Source: an uncultured Acidobacteriota bacterium (lineage in GTDB: Bacteria > Acidobacteriota > Vicinamibacteria > Fen-336). From it: 64,000 bases of DNA. The notes beneath the pieces are model-generated. The model did no database searches and was not told the origin of the DNA. It saw only the letters and a list, made by a program, of their open reading frames with translations. The stretch is from NCBI GenBank assembly GCA_902826455.1, contig CADEEV010000001.1:184955-248954 (forward strand), in the 5' to 3' direction. Shown in pieces: positions 3,748 through 22,426 of this stretch (the first letter of the stretch is position 1; every line of letters starts with the position of its first letter). The position numbers and the translations under genes were made by a program.

Positions 3748-3822
3748 GGCGCTATCGTCTAGGGGTTAGGACGGTTGGTTCTCAGCCATCAAACCGGGGT
3801 TCGAATCCCCGTAGCGCTACCA
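3748..3822 (+). tRNA. tRNA-Glu (anticodon CTC)
   Basis: A cloverleaf can be folded. The acceptor stem pairs 3748-3754 (GGCGCTA) with 3812-3818 (TAGCGCT); its first pair is G-U. The D-arm contains TCTAGGGGTTAGGA. The anticodon loop is TTCTCAG, with CTC as anticodon. The T-arm is CGGGG-TTCGAAT-CCCCG, and the discriminator A is followed by an encoded CCA at 3820-3822. The overall sequence resembles bacterial tRNA-Glu (GTCTAG.GG D-arm). The anticodon stem as I align it has one T-T mismatch, at the second pair. The gene stands alone between a minus-strand gene and the amidohydrolase promoter. Confidence 0.93.
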
Positions 3823-3880: not shown

Positions 3881-3945
3881 TTGACTTTGGGACTTGGCCT
3901 CGGCTATAAGAAACCCAAAGCGCAATATTTCGCAACGAAACGCAA
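3881..3945 (+). promoter_or_regulatory. Promoter plus tandem 10-bp operator array upstream of the amidohydrolase
   Basis: TTGACT at 3881-3886 and TATAAG at 3905-3910 are separated by 18 bases, a near-consensus sigma70 promoter in a very GC-rich genome. Directly downstream lie three 8-base half-sites at exact 10-base spacing: AAGCGCAA (3918-3925), TTTCGCAA (3928-3935) and AAACGCAA (3938-3945). A poorer AAACCCAA lies at 3911. Tandem half-sites one helical turn apart covering the transcription start are typical of DeoR-family operators. A deoR gene lies three genes downstream, probably in the same transcript. Related arrays precede the genes starting at 8646 and 35345. Confidence 0.75.
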
Positions 3946-3971
3946 GACACATCTCGTCTCGCGGAGGAATC

Positions 3972-5186
3972 ATGAGCGATTGGAATCGTCGCCGCTGGCT
4001 GCAGAGCCTCGGCCTGGGCGCCCTCGGTGTCGGGAGCGGCGGCTTGCTGCGCGCGGACGACGCGAAGCCGTGCCCGTCGGGCCCCGGCCTGCAGCTCCAG
4101 GACTTCCGGCCGAAGAGCGCGCTGCACGTGAAGCAGACCTTCGTGCCGAAGGCGAAGTTCCCCGTCATCGACGTCCACACGCACCTGAGCTGGACGGCGC
4201 AGAACAAGGGCGGCGTGCCCGTGGGCGAGAAGGTCGCGGCGCAGATCACCGCCAAGGACGCGCTCGTGGTCATGGACCGCAAGAACGTGCGCGCGATGGT
4301 CAACCTCACCGGAGGCACCGGCAAGGGGCTCGAGGAGAACATCGCGGCCTTCGACAAGGCGGCGCCCGGGCGCTTCCTGACCTGCACCGAGCCGTCGTAC
4401 GGCGACTTCCTCGATCCGAAGTACCCGCAGCTCCAGGCCGACGCCATCGAGCACGCGGCGAAGGCCGGCGCCCGCGGCCTCAAGATCCTGAAGGCCCTGG
4501 GCCTGGTGCTGCGCGAGCGCATCTCCGAGGGGCCGCTCGTGAAGGTGGACGACAAGCGCTTCGATCCCATGTGGGAGGCCTGCGCCGCCCACAAGCTGCC
4601 CGTGATGATCCATGTGGCTGATCCCGAAGCGTTCTTCACGCCCATCGACTGCACGAACGAGCGCTGGGACGAGCTCGGACACCATCCCGACTGGTCCTTC
4701 TACGGGAAGGACTACCCGAGCTTCAAGGAGATCATGGAGGCGCGCGACCGGATGTTCGCCCGGCACCCGAAGACCTCGTTCGTCGGCCTCCACGTGGGCC
4801 ACGACGCCGAGAACCTCGAGTTCGTGGGCCAGTCCCTCGACAAGTTCCCGAACATGACCGTCGAGATCGGAGCGCGCATCGGCGAGCTCGGCCGCCAGCC
4901 GCGCACGGCCGGCCGCTTCTTCGACAAGTACCAGGACCGCATCCTGTTCGGCACCGACGCGGTGCCGCCGCCCGACGGCGAGAACTATCCCCAGCAGGTC
5001 TTCAAGGACGAACTCTACGAGATCTACTACCGCTTCCTCGAGACCGAGGACGAGGCCTTCGACTACGCGCCCGCGCCCGTGCCGCCCCAGGGCCGCTGGC
5101 AGATCTACGGCCTGGGCCTGTCCGACGCGATCCTGAAGAAGGTCTACAACGGCAACGCGATGCGCGTGCTGGGCATCAACGCATGA
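3972..5186 (+). CDS. Tat-exported amidohydrolase (amidohydrolase_2 family)
   Basis: A 404-residue TIM-barrel metal hydrolase of the amidohydrolase-related family. It begins with a Tat signal: NRRRWLQSLGLGALG follows MSDW, so it should be exported folded. After the signal, FPVIDVHTHLSW gives the first metal-binding His-x-His motif. MIHVADPEAFFTPID and GLHVGHDAENLEF supply further likely metal-binding histidines, and ILFGTDAVPP gives the catalytic Asp near the C-terminus. Such enzymes hydrolyse or decarboxylate ring or amide substrates, or act as lactonases on sugar acids; the substrate is unknown. The start at 3972 is preceded by GGAGGA. It overlaps the next gene by ATGA, and its promoter carries the tandem operator array. 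Confidence 0.85.
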   Translation: MSDWNRRRWLQSLGLGALGVGSGGLLRADDAKPCPSGPGLQLQDFRPKSALHVKQTFVPKAKFPVIDVHTHLSWTAQNKGGVPVGEKVAAQITAKDALVVMDRKNVRAMVNLTGGTGKGLEENIAAFDKAAPGRFLTCTEPSYGDFLDPKYPQLQADAIEHAAKAGARGLKILKALGLVLRERISEGPLVKVDDKRFDPMWEACAAHKLPVMIHVADPEAFFTPIDCTNERWDELGHHPDWSFYGKDYPSFKEIMEARDRMFARHPKTSFVGLHVGHDAENLEFVGQSLDKFPNMTVEIGARIGELGRQPRTAGRFFDKYQDRILFGTDAVPPPDGENYPQQVFKDELYEIYYRFLETEDEAFDYAPAPVPPQGRWQIYGLGLSDAILKKVYNGNAMRVLGINA

Positions 5187-5881
5187 TCGCCGGCGCGCTG
5201 TTGACCCTGGCCCTTGCCGCGGCCGAGCCCGCGGGCTACGACGTCGCGCGGGCCGGCTCCGATCGCGCGGCGCTCCTCGAGGGAGCCGACGCCACGTGGG
5301 CGAAGGCGAGCCCGATCTCCTGGGGACCGGAGAGGTACACGACGTCTTTCCGCGCGCTGTGGGACGACGCCGGTCTCTACCTGCGCTGGGACGCCACCGA
5401 CCCCGATCCGTGGTGGACCATGACGAAACGCGACGAGTGGCTCTGGCAGCAGGAGGTCGTCGAGATCTTCCTCGACATCGACGGCTCGGGCACGAACTAC
5501 GCCGAGGTCGAGGTCTCCCCGGGCAACGTGATCTGCGACGTGCGCATGGTCACGCCATGGCCCAACAAGCAGATGGACTACGCCTGGAACCTCGACGGCC
5601 TCGAGAGCCGCGTCCACTTCGCGACCGACGCCCAGGGTCAGAAGACGGGCTGGAAGGCCACCGCGTTCCTGCCCTGGAGCGGCTTCAAGTCGCTGCCCTC
5701 GGCCGCGAAGGTGACGCTGCCGCCCAGGGAAGGGCAGTCCTTCCGCTTCAACGTGTTCCGCGTCGAGCGTCCGAACCGGAAGGATCCCGAGAAGGACGCG
5801 GTCGAGGTCGCATGGTCGAAGCCGCCCGTCGAGAGCTTCCACGTGCCGTCGGCGTTCCGGAGCTTCGTCTTCCGCAAGTGA
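5183..5881 (+). CDS. Secreted carbohydrate-binding CBM9-like protein
   Basis: A 232-residue protein with a short hydrophobic leader (MIAGALLTLALAAAEPAG), so probably exported. The rest resembles the CBM9-like/DOMON-related beta-sandwich: ALWDDAGLYLRWDATDPDPWWT, then EVVEIFLDIDGSGTNYAEVEVSPGNVICDVR, GWKATAFLPWSGF and FRFNVFRVERPN. In this family the fold binds sugar ends. The ATG overlaps the amidohydrolase stop (ATGA) and its own stop overlaps the next gene (GTGA), so translation is likely coupled. Together with the exported amidohydrolase this suggests extracytoplasmic handling of a carbohydrate-derived substrate. A purely structural role in ligand capture is also possible. Confidence 0.75.
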   Translation: MIAGALLTLALAAAEPAGYDVARAGSDRAALLEGADATWAKASPISWGPERYTTSFRALWDDAGLYLRWDATDPDPWWTMTKRDEWLWQQEVVEIFLDIDGSGTNYAEVEVSPGNVICDVRMVTPWPNKQMDYAWNLDGLESRVHFATDAQGQKTGWKATAFLPWSGFKSLPSAAKVTLPPREGQSFRFNVFRVERPNRKDPEKDAVEVAWSKPPVESFHVPSAFRSFVFRK

Positions 5882-6747
5882 TCCAACCGGCCACGGGCGG
5901 CGTCGCGCTCCGGGACATGGCCCCGAGGGACGTCCCGTCGGGGCTGCGCCTGTGCCGCCTCGCCCATTGGAACCAGCGGGCCGAGGACTGGCAGGCGTTG
6001 CTCGCGAACGGCTCCTTCCGGCTCGCGATGCGCGGCGACGACTGCATCGGCTCGGGCGGCGCGGTTCACTACGAGCAGCGCCTGGCCTGGATCGCGATGA
6101 TCCTGGTCGACCCGTCCGAGCGGGGCCGCGGCATCGCGACGCGCCTCGTGGCGGACCAGCTGCAGCGCCTGCAGCGCTTCGCCGTCGTGGGCCTCGACGC
6201 GACGCCCCAGGGCGTCGCCGTCTACACCCGCCACGGGTTCACCGATCGCAGCGGCTTCGCGCGCATGGAGCGGCCCGCGGACGCCCCGGCCGTGCGCGAG
6301 TTCCACGATCCCGCGGTCGTGCCGCTCCAGGTGGGGGAGCTGCCGCGTCTGGCCGCCGTCGACCGGTCCGTTTTCGGGGCAGACCGCATGGCCGCCCTGC
6401 GCTGGGCCGCGGAGCAGGCGCCGGAGTACGCGTTCCGGCTCGACGCGGTCGCCTCCGGCGGGGCCCCGAGCTACCTGTTCGGCCGGCACGGCCATCGCAC
6501 CGAGCACCTCGGACCGCTCGTCGCCCCTCACGAGGGCGCCGCGTCGGCCCTCGTGTCCGCGGTGCTGGCCGCGCACCCCGGCCGGGCCTTCACCCTCGAC
6601 GCCCCCGAACGGCCGGCGTGGATCGAGCGGCTCGGCCGCCTCGGCTTCAAGCTGCAGCGGCCCTTCCGCCGCATGATCCTCGGCAACGGCGAGGTACCGG
6701 GGGATCCCGAGCAGGTCTACGCGCTCTTCGGGCCGGAGTTCGGGTGA
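5878..6747 (+). CDS. Tandem GNAT-domain N-acetyltransferase
   Basis: 289 residues with two GNAT-type halves. The first, about residues 10-140, has the acetyl-CoA pyrophosphate-binding signature in VDPSERGRGIATRLV and the strand-turn GLDATPQGVAVYTRHGF. The second half, after residue 150, resembles the C-terminal acetyltransferase-like domain often paired with GNATs (ELPRLAAVDRSVFGADR and AWIERLGRLGFKLQRPFRRM). The GTG start at 5878 overlaps the upstream stop as GTGA; an ATG at 5917 is an alternative. It may acetylate a small amine such as an amino sugar or antibiotic-like compound. Its position between catabolic genes and deoR favours a metabolic substrate, but that is inference. Confidence 0.75.
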   Translation: MIQPATGGVALRDMAPRDVPSGLRLCRLAHWNQRAEDWQALLANGSFRLAMRGDDCIGSGGAVHYEQRLAWIAMILVDPSERGRGIATRLVADQLQRLQRFAVVGLDATPQGVAVYTRHGFTDRSGFARMERPADAPAVREFHDPAVVPLQVGELPRLAAVDRSVFGADRMAALRWAAEQAPEYAFRLDAVASGGAPSYLFGRHGHRTEHLGPLVAPHEGAASALVSAVLAAHPGRAFTLDAPERPAWIERLGRLGFKLQRPFRRMILGNGEVPGDPEQVYALFGPEFG

Positions 6748-6811: not shown

Positions 6812-7606
6812 ATGACCAGGGCGTCGAAGAAACCGCGACTGCTCGTCGAAGAGCGGCGGCGCCGCATCACGGAGATGCTCGAGGCCCAGGAGCGCGTCAC
6901 GGTCGAGGAGCTGGTCGCCCGCTTCGACGTCTCCGCGGTGACGATCCGCGGCGACCTCGACGCCCTCGCGAAGTCCGGCGCCGTGATCCGTTCCCACGGC
7001 GGGGCCCTGAAGCGCATCGAGGACCCCGAGGACATCCCGATCACGGTGAAGGAGACGCTGCACCACGCCGAGAAAGTGCGCATCGGCCACGCGGCCGCCC
7101 ACATGATCAAGGACGGCGAGACGATCATGCTGGACTCGGGCTCCACGACCATGGAGATCGCGCGCCAGGTCAAGTTCCTCAAGCTGAAGTCCCTGAACGT
7201 GATCACGAACGCGCTCAACGTCGCCATGGAGCTCGCGAGCCTGCCCCACGTGCGGCTCATCATGATCGGCGGGATCCTGCGCCAGATGTCGTACTCGCTG
7301 GCCGGGCCCCACGCCGAGCAGACGCTGCGGGCGCTCTACGCCGACCGGCTGTTCCTGGGCGTCGACGGCCTCGATCCCGAGATCGGCCTGATGACGCCCG
7401 ACGTGCTCGAGGCGCAACTGAACGCCGTGATGATCCAGGTCTCGCGCGAGGTGGTGGTGGTCGCCGACCACACGAAATTCCAGCGCCGCAGTCTGTCGGT
7501 GATCGCACGCATCGACGCCGTGCACAAGGTCATCACGGACTCGGCGGTGGCGCCGGAGATCGTGACGGCGGTGCGCGGCAAGAACGTCGAGGTCGTGCTG
7601 GTCTAG
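6812..7606 (+). CDS. DeoR/GlpR-family transcriptional repressor
   Basis: A 264-residue regulator of the usual DeoR length. The N-terminal winged helix has the family signature ITEMLEAQERVTVEELVARF with recognition helix SAVTIRGDLDAL and the wing RSHGGALKR. The C-terminal sugar-phosphate-sensing domain, which resembles ribose-5-phosphate isomerase, contains IMLDSGSTTMEIARQ, NVITNALNVAMELA, GGILRQMSYSLAGP and VVVADHTKFQRRS. Such proteins usually repress sugar or amino-sugar catabolic genes and release DNA on binding a phosphorylated sugar. ATG 6812 is preceded by GGAGAAGGAGAG. It lies 64 bases behind the GNAT gene and probably belongs to the amidohydrolase transcript. It is the natural candidate to bind the 10-bp arrays near 3918, 8636 and 35371. 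Confidence 0.9.
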   Translation: MTRASKKPRLLVEERRRRITEMLEAQERVTVEELVARFDVSAVTIRGDLDALAKSGAVIRSHGGALKRIEDPEDIPITVKETLHHAEKVRIGHAAAHMIKDGETIMLDSGSTTMEIARQVKFLKLKSLNVITNALNVAMELASLPHVRLIMIGGILRQMSYSLAGPHAEQTLRALYADRLFLGVDGLDPEIGLMTPDVLEAQLNAVMIQVSREVVVVADHTKFQRRSLSVIARIDAVHKVITDSAVAPEIVTAVRGKNVEVVLV

Positions 7607-8646
7607 CGCAGCCAGGCGTCGAGGTTCGCGGCCACGAACGCGTCGTCGCGGAGCTCGGGGTAGGTCGCGTGGACGCGGTCGATCTCGTCCTGCTGGCCCG
7701 GCGACAGGCCTTCCTTCGGGTCCAGGCACCACAGGCCTCGCAGCAGGCCCTGGCGCCGCAGCGCCTCGTGGATGCCTGCGATGCAGCCGTGATAGGCGTT
7801 GCGCGCGTCGAACAATGCCGCGTTCGCGTCGGTGAGCTTCTGGCCGAGCGTCAGCAGCTCGAGAGTGCCGGCGCCTCCCTGGGCACGGCAGCGCTTCACG
7901 GCCTCGAGCATCTCGACCGCCCGGGCCGTCCACGTGGCCCACTGGCCGAGCAGCCCGCCGGAGAAGCCCACGCGCTTCCCGCCGAAGTCGTAGTCCGTCA
8001 GGAGGTCCGCCAGGATCGCGTCGTCGTTGCCGGTGTAGAGCGCCACCTCGTGAGCGCGGCCGCTGTCGGCCAGGGCCCGGGCCACGTCGGCGGTCTTGTA
8101 GCGATCGAAGGGCGCGACCTTGATGCCGACCACGTTCCCGATCTCGAGGAAGCGGCGCCAGAAGCCGTAGTCGAGGAGGCGACCGCCGACGGCCGGCTGG
8201 AGGTAGAAGCCGAGCAGCGGGATCTCGTCCGCGACGCGCGCACAGTGCGCGACGAGCTCGTCGGTGGACGCCGTGCGGAGCGCGCCGAGGCTCAGCAGGC
8301 CCACGTCGTAGCCGAGCTCGCGGGCCAGCACCGCCTCGGAGACGGCCTGCGGCGTGGGGCCGCACACGCCGGCCACCTTCAGCAGGGGCCGTTCCTGGGC
8401 ATCGACGACCTCGGCGGCGAGCGAGAGCACCGGCTTCAGCAGGCCCACTCCCGGGTCGCGGATCTGGAACTGGGTGGTGTGGACGGCCACAGCCACGCCG
8501 CCCGCGCCCGAGGCACAGTAGTAGCGGGTCAGCGCCCGCTGGTGCCGCTCGTCGAGCTTCCGCTCGGCCGTGAGCGCCAAGGGGTGGGCGGGAATCACGA
8601 TGCCGGCCAGCAGCGTGTCCCGCAGGCTTTGCGTCTTGCGTTTCAT
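7603..8646 (-). CDS. Dihydrodipicolinate synthase (DapA)-family lyase/aldolase
   Basis: A 347-residue class I aldolase-type TIM barrel. The start reads LLAGIVIPAHPLALTAERKLD, as in the DapA/NanA superfamily. The likely Schiff-base lysine is K176 in VVGIKVAPFDRYK and the supporting tyrosine is Y148 in LLGFYLQP. The usual GxxGE motif of true DapA is not obvious, and the protein is longer than the roughly 290-residue DapA, so lysine synthesis is unlikely. A keto-sugar-acid aldolase or dehydratase role is more plausible. The start codon lies inside the operator array with no clear ribosome-binding site. Its stop overlaps that of deoR in a CTAG. The epimerase (11912-12952) and GH20 gene nearby suggest one pathway. 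Confidence 0.8.
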   Translation of the reverse strand: MKRKTQSLRDTLLAGIVIPAHPLALTAERKLDERHQRALTRYYCASGAGGVAVAVHTTQFQIRDPGVGLLKPVLSLAAEVVDAQERPLLKVAGVCGPTPQAVSEAVLARELGYDVGLLSLGALRTASTDELVAHCARVADEIPLLGFYLQPAVGGRLLDYGFWRRFLEIGNVVGIKVAPFDRYKTADVARALADSGRAHEVALYTGNDDAILADLLTDYDFGGKRVGFSGGLLGQWATWTARAVEMLEAVKRCRAQGGAGTLELLTLGQKLTDANAALFDARNAYHGCIAGIHEALRRQGLLRGLWCLDPKEGLSPGQQDEIDRVHATYPELRDDAFVAANLDAWLR

Positions 8647-8700
8647 TTCGTTAGTCTTTGGTCTCTTGCGTTTATAGCTGCCGGCCGTTGCCGCTGTCAA
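8636..8700 (-). promoter_or_regulatory. Promoter plus tandem 10-bp operator array upstream of the DapA-like gene
   Basis: Read on the minus strand, TTGACA (8700-8695) and TATAAA (8676-8671) are 18 bases apart. From the -10 box into the start codon run four 8-base blocks at exact 10-base period. On the plus strand they are TTGCGTTT at 8636, TTTCGTTA at 8646, CTTTGGTC at 8656 and TTGCGTTT at 8666. The two outer blocks are identical and are the complement of AAACGCAA found before the amidohydrolase. The array covers the expected transcription and translation start, so bound protein would block both polymerase and initiation. The same stretch is the 5' side of the divergent lipoprotein gene. Confidence 0.75.
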
Positions 8701-8714
8701 CCGAGGGGGTCGTC

Positions 8715-9716
8715 GTGCAGAGGTTCCTTCCGCTACTCCTGGTCCTCGCGAGCTGTGGCTCCGCCTCGACCGCCGAGCCCACTCCCGACCCGCGTAGTCC
8801 GTCCGGAATCGGCGCCGGGGGCTATTTCCCCGCGGCCAGCGTCTGGTACCGCGACGTCTCGGCGGCGCCCCTGGACCGCGAGTCGGGAGCGGTGATCGCC
8901 TACCTTGACCGCGTCGGCTGGGGCACGGGCCGGATGCAGATCGACTTTTCAATCGAGGTGCTGCAGGCCGCGACCGACACTCCGATCCTCGCCTTTCGAC
9001 CCACCGAGGACCACTTCCTGCCCGATTGCGACCTCGACCCCGTGCCGGTTCCCGCCGGCGGCAACCTCGAAGGCGAGAGCGGCTATCAGTGCGCCGGGGA
9101 CGGCGACTGCCACCTGATCGTGGTGGATCGGGCTCGTCAACGCCTGTTCGAGATGTGGCGCGCCGACATTCGCGGCGACACGTTCCGCGGCGGCTGCCTC
9201 GCGATCTGGGACCTCGCGAAGACCTATCCTGCGAGCGGCCGCGGCGAGCAGTGCACGAGCGCCGACGCGGCGGGCTACCCGATCGCGCCGCTGCTGTTCA
9301 GCGCCGACGAGGTGGCCGCAGGCTCCATCGGCCACGCGATCCGCTTCATCCTGCCGAACGCCCGCATCCGCAAGGGCCAGTACGTGCACCCCGCGACTCA
9401 CGGGACCCGCTCCACGAGCGGTCCGCCGGACGCGCCGCCCTACGGCGCGCGTCTGCGCCTGCGCGCGAACTACCCGCTCGACCGGCTGCCGAACGAGGGC
9501 GCCCGGGTCGTGGCGCGCGCGATGCAGCGCTACGGGATCCTGCTGTCCGACGGCGGCAACATCGCGCTCACCGCCCAGAGCGATCGCCACACCACGGCGA
9601 AGTGGGCGGGCCTGCTCGGTCCCGGTGACCTCGCCGCGCTCCGCCCGGGAGACTTCGAGATGGTGGACGGCGGCGATCGGATCCCGCTGACCCTCGACTG
9701 CGTCCGCAACCCCTGA
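8715..9716 (+). CDS. Conserved-looking secreted lipoprotein, unknown function
   Basis: No family recognised. The GTG start at 8715 follows GAGGGGG and opens a lipoprotein signal with lipobox LASC (acylated Cys14), so the 333-residue protein should be membrane-anchored outside the cytoplasm. The mature part is rich in Trp, Asp and Cys pairs and has the ordered feel of an enzyme or binding domain. Recognisable stretches are DFSIEVLQAATDTPILAF, DCHLIVVDRARQRLFEMW, a GYPIAPLLFSADEVAAGSI segment followed by HAIRFILPNARIR, and RYGILLSDGGNIALTAQ near the end. It is divergent from the DapA-like gene and shares its control region. The convergent stop pair with the GH20 gene is embedded in a hairpin. 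Confidence 0.7.
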   Translation: MQRFLPLLLVLASCGSASTAEPTPDPRSPSGIGAGGYFPAASVWYRDVSAAPLDRESGAVIAYLDRVGWGTGRMQIDFSIEVLQAATDTPILAFRPTEDHFLPDCDLDPVPVPAGGNLEGESGYQCAGDGDCHLIVVDRARQRLFEMWRADIRGDTFRGGCLAIWDLAKTYPASGRGEQCTSADAAGYPIAPLLFSADEVAAGSIGHAIRFILPNARIRKGQYVHPATHGTRSTSGPPDAPPYGARLRLRANYPLDRLPNEGARVVARAMQRYGILLSDGGNIALTAQSDRHTTAKWAGLLGPGDLAALRPGDFEMVDGGDRIPLTLDCVRNP

Positions 9717-9730
9717 GGCTTCGGCCTCAG
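9713..9730. terminator. UUCG-loop hairpin formed by the two convergent stop codons
   Basis: CTGAGGC (9713-9719), TTCG and GCCTCAG (9724-9730) form a perfect 7-bp stem with a TTCG tetraloop. The stem contains the TGA of the lipoprotein gene (9714-9716) on one strand and the TGA of the GH20 gene (9727-9729) on the other, so it can act in both transcripts. There is no strong T-run on either side, so it may be a weak terminator or an mRNA 3'-end stabiliser. Confidence 0.55.
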
Positions 9731-11925
9731 CGATAGTCTTCGACGCGGGGCTTCGCGACCGCCGTGACGCCGAAGAGCAGCGGCTCGGCCCTCGAGGGCC
9801 CGGGGGTTCCGACCAGCGTGACGGCGACGATCGGCACGTCCGGCCGCGGGTTCACCCACTCGCTCGCCCACAGCACGGCCTTTCCGCCGCTCGGCAGCTG
9901 TCCCGCCAGCACTGGCCGGGCCATGTAGTAGGTCCGCGAGAGACCGGCGTTCCACGGCCCCACGGTCTCGTCGAAGCGGATCTCGTGGGTGGCGACGAGA
10001 TCGTCCGCGTAGCGCACCTCGTAGTACCCGAGCAGCTCCGAGGACTCGTGGGGAAAGTGCGTCTGGTCTCCGGCGTGGATCGAGGGTCGTCCTTCGCCGG
10101 TCGCGGACTGGACGAACAGCAGCGACGCCCAACGGCCGCCGACCGGCAGCGCGACCCGCGTCGGCCGATCGCCGGCGCGGCGCGCCACGCCCACCGCCGA
10201 CGGGCCGCGAGCCGGATCGGCGATCGCGAACGGGAGCTCGTGGGAGTAGCCGCGGCCCGGCTTGAGGCCCGTCAGGTCCCAGCCTTCGCCGCGCGGGGCC
10301 TGGTTGAACGCCGACGCAAGATCCTGGACCTCGAAGCGCATGGGATTCGCGGTCGCCGACGGCACGGGCTTCGCGGCCAGGAGCCCGCGCACCACAGCCA
10401 TCGCCGCGGCGGTGTGCTCGAGGGCGTCGTCCTTCTTCGTGAGGATCTTCGACCACAGCAGGTTCGCGCTGAAGACGGCCTCGGGAATCTGGAGCTTGCC
10501 GAGGACGAACTCCTCGAACGCGCCCCAGGAGGACACCTCGCCGCCGAGGGTGCCGGAGCGCGCGACGCGGCCGGGCCAGTCCTTCTGCTCCGTGCCGACG
10601 AAGTTGCCGACGATGAATGGCCAGCCCAGCGTGCGGAACGTCGCGTCGCCGGCCTCTCCCGACCAGTTGAGGATGTGCAGCGGCTTGCCGGCCGCCAGGA
10701 TGTCGCGTGCCTTGCGCGTGTCGGGCCGGTCGTAGAGCACCGGCCCCGTTTCCGTCCAGCGCTTTCCGAAGCGGTTGTGGCCATCGACGAAGTGGTCGCC
10801 CCAGAGCCACGTCTCGATGCCCTTCGCGTCGAGGTGCTCGCGGACCTTCGTGACGTCGCGCGCGAAGAGCTCGCCGGTGTCCTGGCCGTGGCAGCGGGCG
10901 CAGAACGCGCCGGCGCGCCACTCGTCGTGGCCGATGTGGACCCGCTTCGGCTTCAGCACGTCGAGGTACTCGTCCATGACCTCGAACAGGATCCGATAGG
11001 ACTCCGGGTTCGACGGGCAGTACGAGTCCGGCCAGGTCATGTCCGGGTCTTCCGCGATCGCGCGATGCGCCGAGGCAAGGTAGTACGCATGGGAGAGGGA
11101 CTGGATCTCGGGGACGATCTCGAGGCCGTACTGATCGGCCCACGCGGCGAACTGCCGCACGTCGCCCTTCTCGATGTACGAGCCGTCGCCGACTCCGACG
11201 TGGAGCGAGGCCGCGAAGCGGTTCGCAGTGCCCAGGGGGATGCCTTCGGCCAGTGCGTCCATCGTCTCGCCGTGGGCGTACCACTCGCGGACGGTGCGGC
11301 GCCACCCCGTGCTGATCTCGGGGTGGGACTCGAGGCGCATGGCGCCGCCGACCTCGAGCACGATGCCGTTGTACTTGTAGCGCAGCAGGAAATCGCGCAG
11401 GTAGCGGCGCGCGAAGGGGAGCTGATCGCGGCCGGGGAGGTACAGGTGCACCCACCGGATCGGCAGCGCGGGCCCGTCGCGGACGGTCGCCTCCCTCACG
11501 AAAGCGCTCTGGTGGCCCCAGGGGGCGACGAGCTGGACGAAGGACGACACCGCGTAGAGCGTGCCCCGGTAGTCGCGTCCGGCGAGCACCGCGCGGTCGT
11601 CGCCCACCTGCAGGAGATAGCTCTCGTCCTGGCTCGGCGCCTCGGTCGAGACGCCGACCGTGATGGGCCTTCGACCCGTGGGCGCGGCGCCGACCGCCAC
11701 GGGAACCACGACGCCGAACTGGTCCGCGATCAGCTCCGCGAGAAGCCGGCCCGGATACTGAGCCCGCGCCTCTCCCTCCGGAACCACGATCGTGGCGTCG
11801 GCCAGGAAGAAGCGGCCGTCGCCGTAGCGCGCCTCTTGCGGCACGGGCCAGATGGGGAAGTCCGCGGCTCGCGCCAGCGGCGCGAAGACGAGCAGGCCGA
11901 GCGCAAGGAGCCTAGAAGCGCCCAT
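9727..11925 (-). CDS. Secreted GH20-family beta-N-acetylhexosaminidase-like protein
   Basis: 732 residues with a signal peptide (MGASRLLALGLLVFAPLARA). The N-terminal domain, about residues 25-150, resembles the small alpha/beta domain found before GH20 barrels (IWPVPQEARYGDGRF, then YLLQVGDDRAVLAGRDYRG). The barrel follows, with GIVLEVGGAMR, VPEIQSLSH and HIGHDEWRAGAFC; D334-E335 fit the GH20 catalytic Asp-Glu pair that uses the substrate acetamido group. A cysteine pair, CARCHG, is inserted after the catalytic motif. The C-terminal 200 residues form an additional beta-rich domain. The family releases terminal GlcNAc or GalNAc from glycans. It overlaps the upstream epimerase gene by 14 bases, so the two are one operon. 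Confidence 0.85.
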   Translation of the reverse strand: MGASRLLALGLLVFAPLARAADFPIWPVPQEARYGDGRFFLADATIVVPEGEARAQYPGRLLAELIADQFGVVVPVAVGAAPTGRRPITVGVSTEAPSQDESYLLQVGDDRAVLAGRDYRGTLYAVSSFVQLVAPWGHQSAFVREATVRDGPALPIRWVHLYLPGRDQLPFARRYLRDFLLRYKYNGIVLEVGGAMRLESHPEISTGWRRTVREWYAHGETMDALAEGIPLGTANRFAASLHVGVGDGSYIEKGDVRQFAAWADQYGLEIVPEIQSLSHAYYLASAHRAIAEDPDMTWPDSYCPSNPESYRILFEVMDEYLDVLKPKRVHIGHDEWRAGAFCARCHGQDTGELFARDVTKVREHLDAKGIETWLWGDHFVDGHNRFGKRWTETGPVLYDRPDTRKARDILAAGKPLHILNWSGEAGDATFRTLGWPFIVGNFVGTEQKDWPGRVARSGTLGGEVSSWGAFEEFVLGKLQIPEAVFSANLLWSKILTKKDDALEHTAAAMAVVRGLLAAKPVPSATANPMRFEVQDLASAFNQAPRGEGWDLTGLKPGRGYSHELPFAIADPARGPSAVGVARRAGDRPTRVALPVGGRWASLLFVQSATGEGRPSIHAGDQTHFPHESSELLGYYEVRYADDLVATHEIRFDETVGPWNAGLSRTYYMARPVLAGQLPSGGKAVLWASEWVNPRPDVPIVAVTLVGTPGPSRAEPLLFGVTAVAKPRVEDYR

Positions 11926-12952
11926 CCGTCCGCTCGTACTTCGTCGGCTTGCCCAGAGACCGCCCGCCGCTCTCCACCCAGTGCGCGCACCACTCGAACA
12001 GCGTGTCGAGGGGAACCGATGCCTCGCCGAGGCGTTCGCGGCAGCGCGCCGTGTTGCCGAGCAACGACACCGGACCTTCCGTGCCCGTGAACGTCACGGA
12101 CTTTCCAAGGCGCGCGCCGAAGCGCTCGGCCACGGCTCGTATCGACACCGTCTCGGGTCCCGTGACGTTGAGCGCCACGACCGGCGCCGCCGCGAGACCC
12201 AGGCTGCGCAGCGCGTAGGAGTTGGCGTCGCCTTGCCAGATCACGTTCGCGTGGCCGATCGAGAGGTCGATCGGCTCGCCGGCGAGCACCTTGCGGGCGA
12301 CGTCCACCAGCACGCCGTAGCGCAGGTCCACGGCGTAGAACAGACGATAGAGCACGACGCGCGTCCGGTGCTCGTTCGCGAAGTGCTCGAACACGCGCTC
12401 GCGTCCCAGGCACGACTGCGCGTACTCGCCCACGGGAGCCGTGGCGTCGCCCTCGCGGGCTCCGCCGCTCGCCGGAGGCGTCAGCGGATAGACGTTGCCG
12501 GTGGAGAAGGCCACGATCCGCGCGTCCGCGTAGCGGCGTGCCACGTGAGCGGGGACGATCGTGTTCATGGCCCAGGTGAGGTCGGGCCGCGCCGAGGCCC
12601 CGAACTTCATACCGGCCAGGAACAGCACGTTGTCGAAGCGGGGAAGCTTCTGGACCTGAGCGGGGTCGAGAAGGTCGCAGGCGAGCGTCTCGATGCCCGC
12701 GTCGTTCAGAGGTTGCGTCAGGCTCGTGTCGGAGAAGCGCGAGACCGCGGCGACCCGGCGCTTCGTCCCGGCCTCGTCCGCGGCTCGCCGCGCGAGCCGC
12801 GCGAGGGACGGGCCCATCTTGCCGCCGGCGCCCACGATGGCGACGTCGCCCTCGAGGGTCTTCATGAAGGCGACGTCCGCCGGCGACGGACGCGAGAGCC
12901 TTTCCTCGAGCTGGTCCTCGGTGTCGATCGAATCGGGCCGTGAGCTGGGCAT
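11912..12952 (-). CDS. NAD-dependent epimerase/dehydratase family protein
   Basis: A 346-residue extended-SDR-type protein. After a leading helix (DTEDQLEERLSRPSPADV) comes the Rossmann start DVAIVGAGGKMGPSLARLARR. NVLFLAGMKFG and AFSTGNVYPL follow, and later segments fit sugar-nucleotide or sugar epimerases (NVTGPETVSIRAVAERFG). The usual YxxxK is not obvious in the expected place (EYAQSCLGRERVFEHF), so catalysis may differ. The N-terminal helix before the Rossmann core is a feature I associate with a subgroup seen next to DapA-like genes, which supports ATG 12952 as start despite no clear ribosome-binding site. It probably acts on the sugar released by the GH20 enzyme; this is inference. 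Confidence 0.8.
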   Translation of the reverse strand: MPSSRPDSIDTEDQLEERLSRPSPADVAFMKTLEGDVAIVGAGGKMGPSLARLARRAADEAGTKRRVAAVSRFSDTSLTQPLNDAGIETLACDLLDPAQVQKLPRFDNVLFLAGMKFGASARPDLTWAMNTIVPAHVARRYADARIVAFSTGNVYPLTPPASGGAREGDATAPVGEYAQSCLGRERVFEHFANEHRTRVVLYRLFYAVDLRYGVLVDVARKVLAGEPIDLSIGHANVIWQGDANSYALRSLGLAAAPVVALNVTGPETVSIRAVAERFGARLGKSVTFTGTEGPVSLLGNTARCRERLGEASVPLDTLFEWCAHWVESGGRSLGKPTKYERTDGRF

Positions 12953-13054: not shown

Positions 13055-16000
13055 CTAGAAGGTGGCTCTTATTCCGAGCCGGAACTGTCGACCCGGTGCG
13101 AAGCCTTCCTGGTTGGCGATCGACCCCTCACCGAGCACACCCGTCGTGCCGTTGTTGAGGTCCCCCTCGAGGAGGGCGCTGTCGAGCTGCGAGAAGCCGT
13201 CGCCGTAGAACTGGTAGAACTGCGGGTGGTTGAACGCGTTGTCGAGCAGCGCCGTGAGCTGCAGCTTGAAGTTGTTGCGCTGGATGATGTCCTTGTACAT
13301 CGCGAAGTTGACGACCCAGGTGCCGGGTCCCTTCAGGCTGCCCTTCTTGGCGTTGCCGAGCTGGCCGGGCGCCGGCAGGGCGTAGGCGCCCTGGTTGTAG
13401 AAGGACTCACGCGTCCCGCCCGTGTTGGGATCGCTGACCTGGTCGGGCCGCCACGCGCAACAGAAGAAGTTGCCGAGGCCGTCGAGGGGCTTGCCGGTGT
13501 TCCAGGGGCTCGTGGTGTAGAAGCTCGAGAAGAACGGCGTCAGGTTGTTGCCGGTCTTGGCCTGGAACAGCGACGACACGGTCCAGCCGCCGAACAGGGC
13601 GTTCGCCCAGCCGGGCATGTTGGAGCCATGGCTGCGGTTCTTGCCGAACGGGATCTCCCACGTACCGTTCATCACGACACGGTGCCGCACGACGTTCGGG
13701 TCGGGACCGCGATCCTTCTCGATGTCGTACGGATCGAACTGCACGCCGCCGAGGCTGCTGTTGCCCACGTCGGGAGCGTTGCTGTCGGAGTCGGCGAGGG
13801 TGTAGGCCACGTTGAAGGCGAGGCCGCCCTTGAAGCGCCGGGTCAGCTCGACCTGCAGGGAGTTGAACTGGCCGGAGCCGCCGTTGTTGACGTCGTCCGC
13901 GTAGAAGCCGTAGAGCGGCAGCGGCAGGCGGGCCTTCGTGTCGGGATTGCTGAGGTCCCCGTCGAAGAACTCGGTGTTGGCCGGGATCGTGTTGCGGTCG
14001 GTGTCCACGATGATCTTCCGCATCGACGAGCCCAGGTAGCTCACGCGCACCCCGAAGGCGTCGCTGATCGCGTGCTCGAGGGTCAGGTTGTACTGGTAGG
14101 TGTCCGGCGCCTTCAGGTTCGGGTCGATGCCCTGGTTGCCGAAGTCCGCCGGGTCCACGAACGGCGCGCCACCCGTGAAGCCATGCTGCAGGGGCGCCGA
14201 GCGGCGCGTGCTGCTGAAGCGGAACATGTTGGACGCGAACAGGTCGCGCACGCCCTGCACCGCGACGGTCGGGTGGAACAGGCCGGCGCCGCCGCGCAGC
14301 ACCGTCTTGTCGTTGCCGCCGAAGCGGTACGCGAAGCCGATGCGCGGCGAGAAGTTGTTCTTGTCCTGGTTGATGAGCTGGTCGCTGATGCCGAGGTCCG
14401 AGGCGATGCGGGTGCGGCCGAGAGCCTGGACGCCGGGCGGCAGGAGCGCCGCGATCTGGGCGTTCGGAACCACGTGGTAGCCGCCGTCGTCGGGACGGAA
14501 GTTGCCGAGAATGTTGCTCTTCTCGTGCCAGTTGCCGACGAGCTCGTAGCGCAGGCCGAGGAACACCGTGAGGTTGCGGCTGGCCTTCCAGTCGTCCTGC
14601 AGGAAGACTGCGAAGTCGTTGGAATACCCGTCGAGGTCGCTGCGGTTCGTGACCTGGTCGGTCACGTCACGCGTAGCGCCCAACAGGAAATCCGCGAAGG
14701 CATTGGTGGTCGCGACGCCGCTGAAGCGGTAGCGGCCGCGGAAGTTGACGCCGCGTCCGCGACCGTCGAGGGCCGAGTTGCGCGTGTAGAGGCCGCCGGC
14801 CTTCAGCGAGTGGCCGCCCATGATCCAGGTCACGTTGTCGCTGATCGAGAACGAGTTCTGCTTGACCGTGCGGTCCGCGTTGATGCCGCCGTCGGAGATG
14901 TTGATCGGCCGCGTGGCCGCCGAGCCGCCGGTGAACTGGAAGGCCGGGAAGCCGACGCGTGAGCCGTCGACGCTCGGAGCGGTCTCGAGGCCCAGGGCCG
15001 CGTTGACCTGCTGGACGTTGTAGTTGCTCTGGCGGAACGACTTGTCGTAGTTGTAGCCGATGCGCAGCTCGTTCACGACGGTGCTCGAGAAGATGCGCGT
15101 CCAGCCGCCGATCAACGTCGCCGTATCCAGCTTGCGGTTCTGGATGCCCCCGTTGGTCAGGGCGTTGCCCGCCACTTCGAACGAGACGGTCGCGGGATCA
15201 CGGTGCTGGAAGCCGCCGCGCAGGAACACCGAGTCGTTCTTTGTGAGCTCGTGGTCGATGCGCAGATCCGCGCGCTGGCGCTTGGTGGTCTGGGGGACGA
15301 ACTGCTGGTAGACGCCGAAGCCGCTCGAGAGCTGGCCCGCGTTCGGCAGCGGGTAGAAGAAGTCCATGATCTTCTGGGCCGACGGGTCGAGGCGGTTCGA
15401 CGGGATCACGTTGCCCGGGAACGGCAGGCCCGTGAGCGGGTCGTTGACCGTGAAGCTCGAGCCCGAGAAGTCGCCGGCGCGCTGGGCCGCGCTCGGCACG
15501 GTGGCCCGGCCGCCGCCGAAGATGGCCTTGCTGTTGGAGCCCTCGTAGTTGGCGTAGAAGAACGTCTTGTTGCTCTTCACGGGACCGCCGATGCCGAAGC
15601 CCCAGCGGTGCTGGTGCGTGTCGGCGTTGGGATCGCCGCGCTCGGCGCCCGCCAGCTTCTGGTTGTAGGTGAGGGCGTTCAGGTTGTCCGAGTTGAAGTC
15701 GTAGAAGCCCGTGCCGTGGAACTGGTTGCCGCCGCGCTTGGTCGTGACGACGACGCCGGCGAGACCGCCGTACTCGGCGCTGTACGAGTTCGAGAGCACG
15801 GTCATCTCGGCGATGGCGTCGAGGCCGGGCGCCGAGTTGCCGATCGTGCCGAAGATCGCGTTGGTCGAGGCCTGACCGTCCTGCACGTAGCTGACGCCGT
15901 AGGTGCGGCCGCCCAGGAACTGGATGTCGTCGCTGCCGCCGATGACGTTCGGGTTCAGGAGCAGGAAATCCTGGATGTCGCGGCTCGCGCGCGGCAGGTC

Positions 16001-16471
16001 GTGGAGCTGCTGCTGGTCGAGGCCCGAGGCGACGGCCTGGCTCTCCAGCGTGATGTTTGACGTCGTCTCGGCGGCGACCGTCACGGTCTCGGTGAGGGCG
16101 CCCAGCTCGAGCTTGATGTCGGCGCGGGCGATGCCGCTGGCGCGCAGCACGACGCCGGTCTGCTCGGCCTTCTTGAAGTTCGTGGTCACGACCTCGATCC
16201 GGTAGCTGCCCGGCCGCAGGTTGGTGGCCTCGAAACGTCCCTCCGCATCGGTTTCGACCGTGCGGGGCACGCCCGTGGCCTCGTCCACGATCAGGACGGT
16301 CGCTCCCTGGACGGCGGAGCCCTGGGGGTCTGCCACGGTGCCACGAATGGCTCCGAGGAAGGACTGGGCCATCGCCGGGCCGGCGACCATCGCCGCGACC
16401 AGCATGAGCAGCGCCCAGAACCGGGGAGCCGACCGCGCCCCGGACGCGGTTACGAACGAGTGTCCCTGCAT
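13055..16471 (-). CDS. Oar-like TonB-dependent outer-membrane receptor with carboxypeptidase-regulatory domain
   Basis: 1138 residues. A signal peptide ends near AMA-QS. Next comes an Ig-like CarboxypepD_reg domain (residues about 30-115: GAIRGTVADPQGSAVQGATV and GSYRIEVVTTNFKK). A plug domain follows (QLHDLPRASRDIQDFLLLNP, then GGRTYGVSYVQDG and SAEYGGLAGVVV). A long beta-barrel rich in aromatic/Gly/Asn strands ends in GIRATF with the C-terminal Phe expected of an outer-membrane barrel. Oar-type receptors probably import large oligomers (glycans or peptides) or bind surface ligands using TonB energy. The ATG follows GAGGAGGAAGAG. A promoter lies about 110-140 bases upstream and a strong terminator follows. 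It is transcribed alone, divergent from the sulfatase-like gene. Confidence 0.92.
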   Translation of the reverse strand: MQGHSFVTASGARSAPRFWALLMLVAAMVAGPAMAQSFLGAIRGTVADPQGSAVQGATVLIVDEATGVPRTVETDAEGRFEATNLRPGSYRIEVVTTNFKKAEQTGVVLRASGIARADIKLELGALTETVTVAAETTSNITLESQAVASGLDQQQLHDLPRASRDIQDFLLLNPNVIGGSDDIQFLGGRTYGVSYVQDGQASTNAIFGTIGNSAPGLDAIAEMTVLSNSYSAEYGGLAGVVVTTKRGGNQFHGTGFYDFNSDNLNALTYNQKLAGAERGDPNADTHQHRWGFGIGGPVKSNKTFFYANYEGSNSKAIFGGGRATVPSAAQRAGDFSGSSFTVNDPLTGLPFPGNVIPSNRLDPSAQKIMDFFYPLPNAGQLSSGFGVYQQFVPQTTKRQRADLRIDHELTKNDSVFLRGGFQHRDPATVSFEVAGNALTNGGIQNRKLDTATLIGGWTRIFSSTVVNELRIGYNYDKSFRQSNYNVQQVNAALGLETAPSVDGSRVGFPAFQFTGGSAATRPINISDGGINADRTVKQNSFSISDNVTWIMGGHSLKAGGLYTRNSALDGRGRGVNFRGRYRFSGVATTNAFADFLLGATRDVTDQVTNRSDLDGYSNDFAVFLQDDWKASRNLTVFLGLRYELVGNWHEKSNILGNFRPDDGGYHVVPNAQIAALLPPGVQALGRTRIASDLGISDQLINQDKNNFSPRIGFAYRFGGNDKTVLRGGAGLFHPTVAVQGVRDLFASNMFRFSSTRRSAPLQHGFTGGAPFVDPADFGNQGIDPNLKAPDTYQYNLTLEHAISDAFGVRVSYLGSSMRKIIVDTDRNTIPANTEFFDGDLSNPDTKARLPLPLYGFYADDVNNGGSGQFNSLQVELTRRFKGGLAFNVAYTLADSDSNAPDVGNSSLGGVQFDPYDIEKDRGPDPNVVRHRVVMNGTWEIPFGKNRSHGSNMPGWANALFGGWTVSSLFQAKTGNNLTPFFSSFYTTSPWNTGKPLDGLGNFFCCAWRPDQVSDPNTGGTRESFYNQGAYALPAPGQLGNAKKGSLKGPGTWVVNFAMYKDIIQRNNFKLQLTALLDNAFNHPQFYQFYGDGFSQLDSALLEGDLNNGTTGVLGEGSIANQEGFAPGRQFRLGIRATF

Positions 16472-16543: not shown

Positions 16544-16612
16544 CCGCAAGACAACAATCGCAAGTAAAAGATAGTTGAACGGCTTTTTAGTCCTTTTTGT
16601 TCCTGGTGTCAA
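16544..16612 (-). promoter_or_regulatory. Promoter of the Oar-like receptor with two CGCAA-type half-sites
   Basis: On the minus strand TTGACA (16612-16607) and TAAAAA (16589-16584) are 17 bases apart. Downstream lie two TTGCG motifs: on the plus strand AATCGCAA at 16556-16563 and CCGCAAG at 16544-16550. They resemble the half-sites of the DeoR-type arrays but are spaced 14 bases, not 10, so membership in that regulon is doubtful. The remaining leader to the ATG at 16471 is about 100 bases with no other structure I can name. Confidence 0.5.
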
Positions 16613-16678: not shown

Positions 16679-18862
16679 ATGCGGCCCACCAAGCCCGTTC
16701 TGCTCGTCGTTGCCGGTTTGCTTGCGGTCGCCGGTGCTGTGACGTTCCTGCGACGGCCGGCGGCGGCGCCGAAGTCCGGCCTTCGACCCCACATCCTGCT
16801 CGTCACCCTCGACACCGTTCGCGCCGATCACATCGGCTGCTACGGCGCCCGCGGGGCGTCCACGCCCACGCTCGACGGCCTGGCCGCGCGCGGCGTGCGC
16901 TTCGCGACGGCCGTGGCCCACGCTCCGCTGACCGCGCCGTCGCATGCGTCCATCCTCACGAGCCGCACCCCGTTGGGCCACGGGGTACGCGACAACGGCG
17001 CCTATGTCCTGCCGGAAGGCGTGCCCACCGTCGCCGAGGACCTCAAGCGCGCCGGGTACAGGACCGCGGCGTTCGTCTCTGGCTTTCCCCTGACGCGCCG
17101 CTTCGGCCTCGACCGGGGCTTCGACACGTACGACGACCACCTGCCGCGGGGCACGGATCCGCGGCGCACCGCCTACGTCGAACGCAGTGCCGACCGCACG
17201 ACGGACGCGGCGCTGCAGTGGCTCGACTCCACGCCGGCCGGTTCGGACCCGCTCTTCCTCTGGGTCCACTACTTCGACGCCCATGCGCCCTACGAGCCGC
17301 CGGCCGAGTTCCTGTCGCGGGTCGGCTCGGCCTACGCCGGAGAGATCTCCTTCGTCGATGCGCAGCTCGCGCGGCTGCTGGCTCGCATCGAGGGCCGCGG
17401 GCCGACGCTCGTCCTGGTCACGGCGGACCATGGCGAGAGCCTCGGCGAGCACGGCGAGGACACCCACGGCATCTTCCTGTACGACTCGACGCTGCGCGTC
17501 CCGTTCGTCGTGGCGGGCCCCGGAGTGCCGTCGGGACAAGTCGCGACGACCGTGGCGCGCGGCATCGACGTGGCCCCGACGCTTCTCGACTACGCGGGCC
17601 TCGAAGCGAAGGGCGCCGAGGGCCGCTCGCTGCGCACCGCGGCCGCGGGCCAGCGCCTGGACGACGCTCCGACCTATTCCGAGTCGCTGCACTCGCAGCT
17701 CCAGTACGGCTGGGCGCCCCTGCATGCCTGGCGCACGGCCCGCTACAAGTTCATCGAGGCGCCGCGCGCCGAGCTCTACGACCTCCAGGACGACCCGCAG
17801 GAGGCGAAGGACCGGGGCCGGGAGGATGCCGCCAAGCTCGAGACGCTGCGCGGCCAGCTCCAGAAGGTGATGGCCACGACGACGCCCATCGCCACCCAGG
17901 CGATCGACGCCGAGACCGCGGCGCGCCTCGACGCGCTCGGCTACCTGGGCGGCGGCGGCGGTGCCGTGGCGCCCGTGCTCACCGGCCGCGACCCGAAGGA
18001 CGGCATCGGTCTCGTCACGCGCCTCGGCCGCAACGGCATGTCCGTGGCGCGGACCGACCCGCAGAAGGCCATCAAGGAGCTGACGACGTTGCTCGCCGAG
18101 GACCCGGGCATGCTCGTGGTCCTGCGCACGCGCGCCGTGGCCTACGAGACCGCCGGCCAGTACGAAGCCGCGGTGCGCGACCTGCGCACCCTCGAGAAGA
18201 AGGGGGCGCTCAGCGCCGAGGACAGCGTCGTGCTGGGCGACAGCCTGCGCCTGGCGGGACGTACCAAGGAGGCTGTCGCAGTCCTCGAGGCCACGGCTCG
18301 CAAGAATCCCCGCTTCGCACAGCCCTGGCTATCCCTCGCCGCCGTGCACGTGGCCGAACGCCGCTTCGACGAGGCGGCCAAGGCCTACACCAGCGTGCTC
18401 GCGATCACCCCCGACCAGACCGAGGCGCTGCGCGGACTCGGCGACCTCGCGATCATCCAGGGCGACAACGCGGAGGCCGGCAAGCGCTACGGGCGCATCC
18501 TCGAGATCGATGCGGCCGACCCGGGCGCGCTCGCGAAGCTGGGCGTCGTGCGCATGCGCGAGGGCCGCGCGGAGGACGCCATCGGGCTGTTCCGCAAGGC
18601 GATCGAGCGCGAGCCGAAGAACGCCGAGACGCTCCTGTACCTCGCGGGGGCGCTGGCGTCCACGGGCCGCGGAAGCGAGGCCCTGCCCTACTTCGACCGC
18701 TCGATCGCGGCGGCACCGACCGCCATGGCCCTGAACGGCCTGGCCTTCACGAAGATGCAGCTGGGCGACGCCGCCGGGGCCGCGGCGGCGTTCCGTCGCT
18801 CGCTGAAGCTGGAGTCCGACCAGCCCGACGTCGTGCAGGCGCTGCGCAGCCTGCCGCGCTGA
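16679..18862 (+). CDS. Sulfatase-like (alkaline-phosphatase superfamily) protein with C-terminal TPR repeats
   Basis: 727 residues. An N-terminal hydrophobic segment (residues 7-24) anchors or exports it. The superfamily domain spans roughly residues 36-400: [19 protein letters not shown] with metal-binding Asp45, nucleophile region [15 protein letters not shown], then [18 protein letters not shown]. Where true sulfatases have Cys/Ser-x-Pro-Ser-Arg, this has T85-A-P-S-H89. It therefore cannot carry formylglycine and may act as a phosphatase, phosphotransferase or an unusual sulfatase. After residue 420 there are about six TPR-like units (for example [20 protein letters not shown] and [20 protein letters not shown]), a scaffold for protein contacts. 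The ATG start has no strong ribosome-binding site. It converges with the VWA gene at TGATCA. Confidence 0.88.
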
Positions 18863-22341: not shown

Positions 22342-22367
22342 ACGTTCTCCGAGCTTAACCCAGGCCC

Positions 22368-22395
22368 TTTCGTTTGGCATTGCTTCCTTGCTTTT
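22368..22395. promoter_or_regulatory. Possible degenerate DeoR-type 10-bp array between divergent genes
   Basis: In the 85-base gap between the GWxTD gene and the beta-helix/deacetylase gene lie TTTCGTTT (22368), CATTGCTT (22378) and TTGCTTTT (22388), spaced exactly 10 bases. They resemble the TTGCGTTT/TTTCGTTA blocks at 8636-8673 but are less regular, and I see no good -35/-10 pair. The gap is otherwise T-rich with nothing recognisable. Confidence 0.35.
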
Positions 22396-22426
22396 GGCTG
22401 TCATCGCCTCTATCGTCGCGGCCAGC

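Follow-up and report, generated by a model that had tools for sequence, protein, structure and literature searches.

The stretch analysed here, hereafter the window, comprises 64 kb of contig C1 in the 5.26-Mb genome (G000) of an uncultured soil Acidobacteriota bacterium. Within it, two minus-strand genes encode a protein resembling DapA, the dihydrodipicolinate synthase (DHDPS) of the lysine pathway, and an epimerase-like protein with the short-chain dehydrogenase/reductase (SDR) fold; a lipoprotein gene and a gene for a secreted GH20 enzyme lie between them, and a DeoR-family regulator gene adjoins. A first-pass annotation had proposed the DapA-like protein, the epimerase and the GH20 enzyme as a three-gene amino-sugar pathway. 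We confirmed the gene order, open reading frames (ORFs) and domains it described, together with Lys176 and Tyr148 of the DapA-like protein. The elements central to our analysis are the following:

6812–7606, plus strand: DeoR-family regulator, AgaR-like (NF040755, 255.5 bits, just below the cut-off of 260)
7603–8646, minus strand: DapA-like class I lyase-superfamily protein of 347 residues, first core member
8634–8660, plus strand: AgaR-type operator-like site over the start of the DapA-like gene, in a region shared with the lipoprotein gene
8715–9716, plus strand: lipoprotein of a multicopy acidobacterial family (lipobox read by eye), with no tie to the pair
9727–11925, minus strand: secreted GH20 beta-N-acetylhexosaminidase-type enzyme (from its Pfam domains), a lineage-specific neighbour
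11912–12952, minus strand: SDR-fold 'NAD-dependent epimerase/dehydratase' of 346 residues without the lysine of the YxxxK motif (PF01370, 34 bits), second core member

Antisense ORFs, including one at 7669–8895 on the plus strand, gave no domain match in the scan of the window ORFs.

Linkage of the DapA-like and SDR genes

The computed linkage of the two core genes was strong. We compiled 109 loci carrying a DapA-like relative—19 from the genomes of surveyed relatives, 80 from a species-level genome collection and 10 from plasmids—and found that 100 of them carry an SDR relative in the same stretch, which bears out the association of DapA-like protein and epimerase drawn by the first-pass annotation. 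The partner lay within 200 bp and on the same strand in 80 loci and within 1.2 kb in 98, the remaining two (L054 and L043) having it on the other strand at a distance of 3.6–3.8 kb. No SDR partner was present in nine loci, some of which are short or cut near the DapA-like gene. Counts on the 109 loci include 14 near-duplicates; without these, the partner was present in 86 of 95. Since the 80 collection loci are the best 80 of at least 589 matched stretches, the linkage applies to close members, with at least 54% identity. Moreover, all 10 plasmid records opened, out of 20 with a match, had an annotated partner adjacent or one gene away. The window features are single-copy, so chance enters only through the linkage.

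DapA-like relatives were detected at E 0.001 in seven of 60 near genomes (own genome included; two marginal, E 4e-4), in 18 of 396 genomes of the phylum, and in the stretches and plasmid records just mentioned. The pair loci span about a dozen phyla, as assigned from record titles: Acidobacteriota, Bacillota, Pseudomonadota, Planctomycetota, Verrucomicrobiota, Bacteroidota/Balneolota, Actinomycetota, Chloroflexota and smaller groups. Our searches of open-access papers, capped and in several cases narrow, brought up no description of this lyase–SDR pair.

The third gene of the proposed pathway behaves differently. The GH20 enzyme has two Pfam domains over cut-off (PF00728, 36.8 bits; PF02838, 52 bits), a signal peptide and an Asp334-Glu335 pair, the last two read by eye; the beginning of its gene and the end of the epimerase gene share 14 nt. 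No GH20 relative was found at E 1e-8 in any of the 109 pair loci, with a single weaker match in L119 (E 3e-6). Genes 75% identical to it occur in the near relatives G003, G010 and G009. In G003 and G010 they sit on other contigs than the pair; the G003 contig ends at the GH20 gene, and the 19 kb read around it in G010 held neither pair member. In G009, the GH20 gene comes after a GWxTD-type gene and a DeoR gene (divergent, 72% identical) with an operator-like site, and the pair was not found in this assembly, which is 78% complete. Relatives of the GWxTD-type protein in the window (20938–22506) lie just upstream of GH20 in both G003 and G009. The GH20 gene therefore lies outside the conserved pair, as a lineage-specific neighbour: of the three genes, GH20 alone is unlinked in relatives, and the other two are strongly linked. 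The lipoprotein, suggested earlier as a possible part of the same system, is not supported as such either, as its family has three copies in the genome and appears in just one of the 109 pair loci.

Folds and conserved residues of the two proteins

The DapA-like protein is longer than E. coli DapA (347 versus 292 residues) and had no Pfam match at E 0.001, when scanned with an over-long start. Its best NCBIfam matches were KdgD-type models with weak scores of 19.1 and 16.7 bits, the latter to TIGR03249 (KdgD), whose cut-off of 373.95 bits it fails. Profile searches gave DHDPS and N-acetylneuraminate lyase (NAL) as solved relatives, with weak E values from 3e-7 to 0.01 (best 3.2e-7), and no closer characterised sequence relative was found beyond these matches. 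The AlphaFold2 model has a pLDDT of 96.1 and adopts the (beta/alpha)8 barrel of DHDPS and NAL (VIA Z 33.9, root-mean-square deviation (rmsd) 2.2, 296 residues aligned; Foldseek probability 1.00). Structural neighbours from Foldseek and VIA-align are given among the matches listed, i.e., the best 50.

In an alignment of 86 sequences (85 of 99 loci plus the window, near-duplicates removed), ten residues were invariant: Lys176, Tyr148, His56, Thr58, Gln59, Phe180, Arg182, Tyr183, Asp208 and Asp209. The DHDPS/NAL superfamily (DapA, NanA, KdgA, KdgD, KdaD and CHBPH) has in common a TIM barrel, a Schiff-base lysine and a tyrosine 28 residues earlier, and the Tyr148–Lys176 spacing of 28 residues equals that of 133/161 in DapA and 137/165 in NanA. 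MAFFT set Phe147 at the tyrosine position by means of a one-residue gap, and the ungapped phmmer alignment favours Tyr148; the register at Thr44/Thr45 (HTTQ versus GTTG) could be shifted by one residue. The window protein differs from the superfamily members compared (those other than KdaD and CHBPH) in being about 50 residues longer, in forming its own clade and in lacking Arg138 and Tyr107 of DapA. The Arg138 position is held by Val153 (82 Val, 3 Ala and 1 Ile among the 86), and the stretch corresponding to Tyr106/107 contains no tyrosine in this family. The genome's own DapA is encoded on contig C53 (302.7 bits, over the TIGR00674 cut-off); the same search returned a match under the cut-off at C1:448980 and did not return the window gene.

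Asp208-Asp209 fall at the positions of Asp191-Glu192 in NanA, residues described in PMC3014015 as contacting sugar hydroxyls. Relative to NanA, however, the alignment places Ala178 for Thr167 and Gly234 for Ser208, and identity is about 20%. In our phylogenetic tree, the DapA-like family forms one clade (support 100/100) on a long stem (5.44 changes per column), with a single NanA as nearest neighbour at weak support (82/96); given the long branches (Prescottella DapA2, YagE and NanA), the nearest subfamily is uncertain. A sialic-acid route, also raised by the first-pass annotation, finds no support in this weak grouping or in the NanE search (PF04131), which had no match in the own genome and was positive in eight of 14 controls. 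Overall, the results support the DapA-like protein as a class I (Schiff-base) member of the lyase superfamily distinct from the lysine-pathway enzyme, and a true DapA activity is unlikely.

The model of the SDR partner (pLDDT 95.8) shows an extended SDR fold, and its closest solved structure, among the matches listed, is TerB, the polyporic-acid reductase of terfestatin biosynthesis (Z 31.1, rmsd 2.5, 291 residues aligned, 22% identity). Across 77 aligned partners (76 of 90 loci plus the window, near-duplicates removed), the glycine-rich motif is kept (Gly41 and Gly44 in 76, Gly47 in all), as is the catalytic Tyr177 in every sequence. The lysine of YxxxK, which TerB keeps in the profile alignment, is missing throughout: position 181 holds Cys in 57 sequences, Ala in 12, Val in four, Thr in two, and Gly and Arg in one each. 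With this lysine absent, a plain SDR mechanism cannot be assumed.

The AgaR-like regulator and its candidate regulon

The 'DeoR-type array' named by the first-pass annotation proved real. When the E. coli AgaR consensus was searched with up to three mismatches, the start of the DapA-like gene was the sole match area in the 64 kb, with two AgaR-type matches at 8636–8660 versus 0.03 expected from dinucleotide shuffles. In E. coli, AgaR binds ahead of agaR, kbaZ and agaS, and AgaS has been proposed, from genetics, as a galactosamine-6-phosphate deaminase, according to PMC3668189. We derived an operator pattern, CTTKCGWTTNRTT, from the window sites at the DapA-like start and ahead of the amidohydrolase gene, plus the E. 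coli consensus. The remaining features of the window cluster are as follows:

3748–3822: tRNA-Glu gene (anticodon ctc), at the cluster edge, just ahead of the amidohydrolase operator-like site
3927–3947, minus strand: operator-like site ahead of the amidohydrolase-CBM9-GNAT-DeoR genes
3972–5186, plus strand: PF04909 amidohydrolase; its start, read by eye, is twin-arginine-like
5183–5881, plus strand: CBM9-like protein
5878–6747 (start approximate), plus strand: two-domain GNAT acetyltransferase
13055–16471, minus strand: Oar-like TonB-type outer-membrane protein (OMP), PF25183, upstream of the SDR gene on its strand
16553–16574, minus strand: operator-like site ahead of the OMP-epimerase-GH20 genes (identical to G003 at 20 of 22 bases)
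16679–18862, plus strand: sulfatase-TPR protein, adjoining the same OMP in the relatives G003 and G010
18863–20941: VWFA-type secreted protein (name by eye)
20938–22506: GWxTD-type secreted protein (name by eye)

The 5.26-Mb genome contains five exact sites of the pattern and, with one mismatch allowed, 13, versus two for the reversed control. Two of the exact sites are the source sites ahead of the DapA-like and amidohydrolase genes. A third lies on contig C41 between divergent genes for an AgaS-family protein and a DeoC/LacD-type aldolase, with PfkB-type kinase genes adjoining AgaS. A fourth, on C2, precedes another OMP_b-brl_4 gene, and some 5 kb upstream lies an amidohydrolase relative; the fifth, on C5, has no sensible target. 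The divergent AgaS-like/PfkB/1-PFK-type genes and the aldolase surround the C41 site at C41:33478–37638 (L182:11479–15639), and this contig also carries NagB-like, MFS and hydroxyacid-dehydrogenase genes. No protein of the genome exceeded the NagB cut-off; the three NagB-like matches, of which C41 carries two, scored about 128 bits. As for the C2 site (C2:19077, L183), the upstream amidohydrolase relative is 35% identical, making this a possible second regulon locus. In G003, a member of the same family, a contiguous segment of about 14 kb unites PfkB-AgaS, the same operator, the aldolase, amidohydrolase, GNAT, sulfatase, OMP, SDR, DapA-like and DeoR genes.

Taken together, the amino-sugar reading is supported at the level of the regulon in this lineage. 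It stands on the AgaR-like regulator, the operator-like sites shared with the AgaS/PfkB/aldolase set and the GH20 gene beside the same DeoR type in G009; a conserved three-gene pathway is not supported.

A probable catabolic role for the pair and its alternatives

With moderate confidence, we read the pair as the two-enzyme core of a widespread catabolic module, placed here within an AgaR-like-controlled N-acetylhexosamine regulon. We infer the activities, the order of steps, the substrate and the repression by the DeoR protein as follows. The SDR-fold partner would most likely use NAD(P) to oxidise or epimerise a sugar or sugar acid. The DapA-like enzyme would then bind the resulting 2-keto acid, most likely derived from a sugar or amino-sugar acid, through a Lys176 Schiff base and cleave or dehydrate it, Tyr148 serving as the acid/base. 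The AgaR-like repressor would govern the pair together with the outer-membrane transporter and the secreted GH20 hexosaminidase and, on the other contig, the AgaS-like isomerase/deaminase, the PfkB-type kinases and the DeoC/LacD-type aldolase, in a regulon for an N-acetylhexosamine, probably N-acetylgalactosamine. A bolder version, in which a new DHDPS/NAL subfamily and the SDR lacking the lysine form a non-phosphorylating amino-sugar(-acid) branch across about a dozen phyla, converting an N-acetylhexosamine-derived acid to a keto acid and then cleaving it, strikes us as unlikely.

The candidate regulon shares with the E. coli aga/gam regulon an AgaR-like regulator and operator type, an AgaS-like isomerase, a PfkB kinase and an aldolase, and differs in adding the lyase–SDR pair and GH20. 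Several observations weigh against our interpretation. The AgaS-like protein reaches 282.7 bits, far under the curated cut-off of 529.2 (neither the AgaR nor the AgaS model was passed), and no NagA-type deacetylase over cut-off was found in the genome. The two window matches of the operator pattern are not independent, the pattern having been built from them, and the site at the OMP promoter has a matrix score of 12.5, inside the shuffle range of 9.7–15.2. The missing YxxxK lysine, too, weighs against taking the chemistry of the SDR partner for granted. Finally, no aga or nag neighbours of the pair were seen in other phyla; the neighbours there differ, so amino sugars may be just this lineage's use of the pair.

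Those neighbours, scanned for 142 of 164 selected proteins, comprise relatives of the window GNAT (29 of the 109 loci), one Gfo/Idh subfamily (11), a regulator family (13, the label being read from sequence), MLE-like enolase-superfamily proteins (nine, in two subfamilies of four and five, labelled likewise), L-serine ammonia-lyase (eight), the M20 deacylase family (seven), and hydroxyacid dehydrogenases and Nramp-type transporters (six each), with transporters and regulators varying widely. They say that the pair is catabolic, often for nitrogen-bearing or acidic substrates, and nothing further. The pair adjoins L-serine ammonia-lyase in two phyla, in Paenibacillaceae (L094, L100, L110 and L117) and Prescottella (L137); L094, L100, L117 and L137 also carry the M20 deacylase, and these loci have a common regulator family.

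A uronate-type role is rather unlikely. Here the SDR would be a dehydrogenase for sugars or uronates, and the DapA-like protein would act on a 2-keto-3-deoxy-aldarate as a dehydratase/decarboxylase of the KdgD kind; the two would handle the acidic sugar from the same polymer, by analogy with the Udh-Gci-KdgD pathway, which is described in PMC6353982 and PMC13398020 as combining uronate dehydrogenase with KdgD of the DHDPS superfamily. The enolase-superfamily and hydroxyacid-dehydrogenase genes near some pairs would suit it, as would the KdgD-type models being the best, though weak, NCBIfam matches; yet the score far under the KdgD cut-off and the separate clade set the window protein apart from KdgD, two genomes (G163 and G236) hold a true KdgD alongside the DapA-like protein, and no uronate lyase or hydrolase was found among the window genes scanned. 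The breakdown of an N-acyl or amino-acid-linked (serine-type) compound, in which M20 deacylase, GNAT, MLE-type enolase and L-serine ammonia-lyase would be helpers, appears quite improbable: the helpers occur in several phyla, and the Paenibacillus ammonia-lyase alpha subunit scores over its cut-off (315.5 versus 243.2 bits), but they are missing from most pairs, seldom occur all together, and GNAT alone is near the window pair. It is rather unlikely, too, that the pair has nothing to do with amino sugars in this organism, with GH20 and the operator-like sites nearby by coincidence or through general carbon control. The location of GH20 on another contig in G010 and its absence from the 109 loci, the targetless C5 site and the retention of the pair elsewhere without any aga gene would fit such a coincidence; the AgaS/aldolase intergenic site, however, turned up with a pattern to which it had not contributed and is kept in G003 beside the pair.

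RefSeq names the two proteins 'dihydrodipicolinate synthase family protein' and either 'NAD(P)-dependent oxidoreductase' or 'NAD-dependent epimerase/dehydratase family protein'. These generic names notwithstanding, the lyase and the SDR make up a closely linked two-gene unit across many phyla. Knowing their reaction would aid the annotation of at least 589 matched stretches at once, and the regulon in this lineage offers a concrete first class of candidate substrates for the pair.

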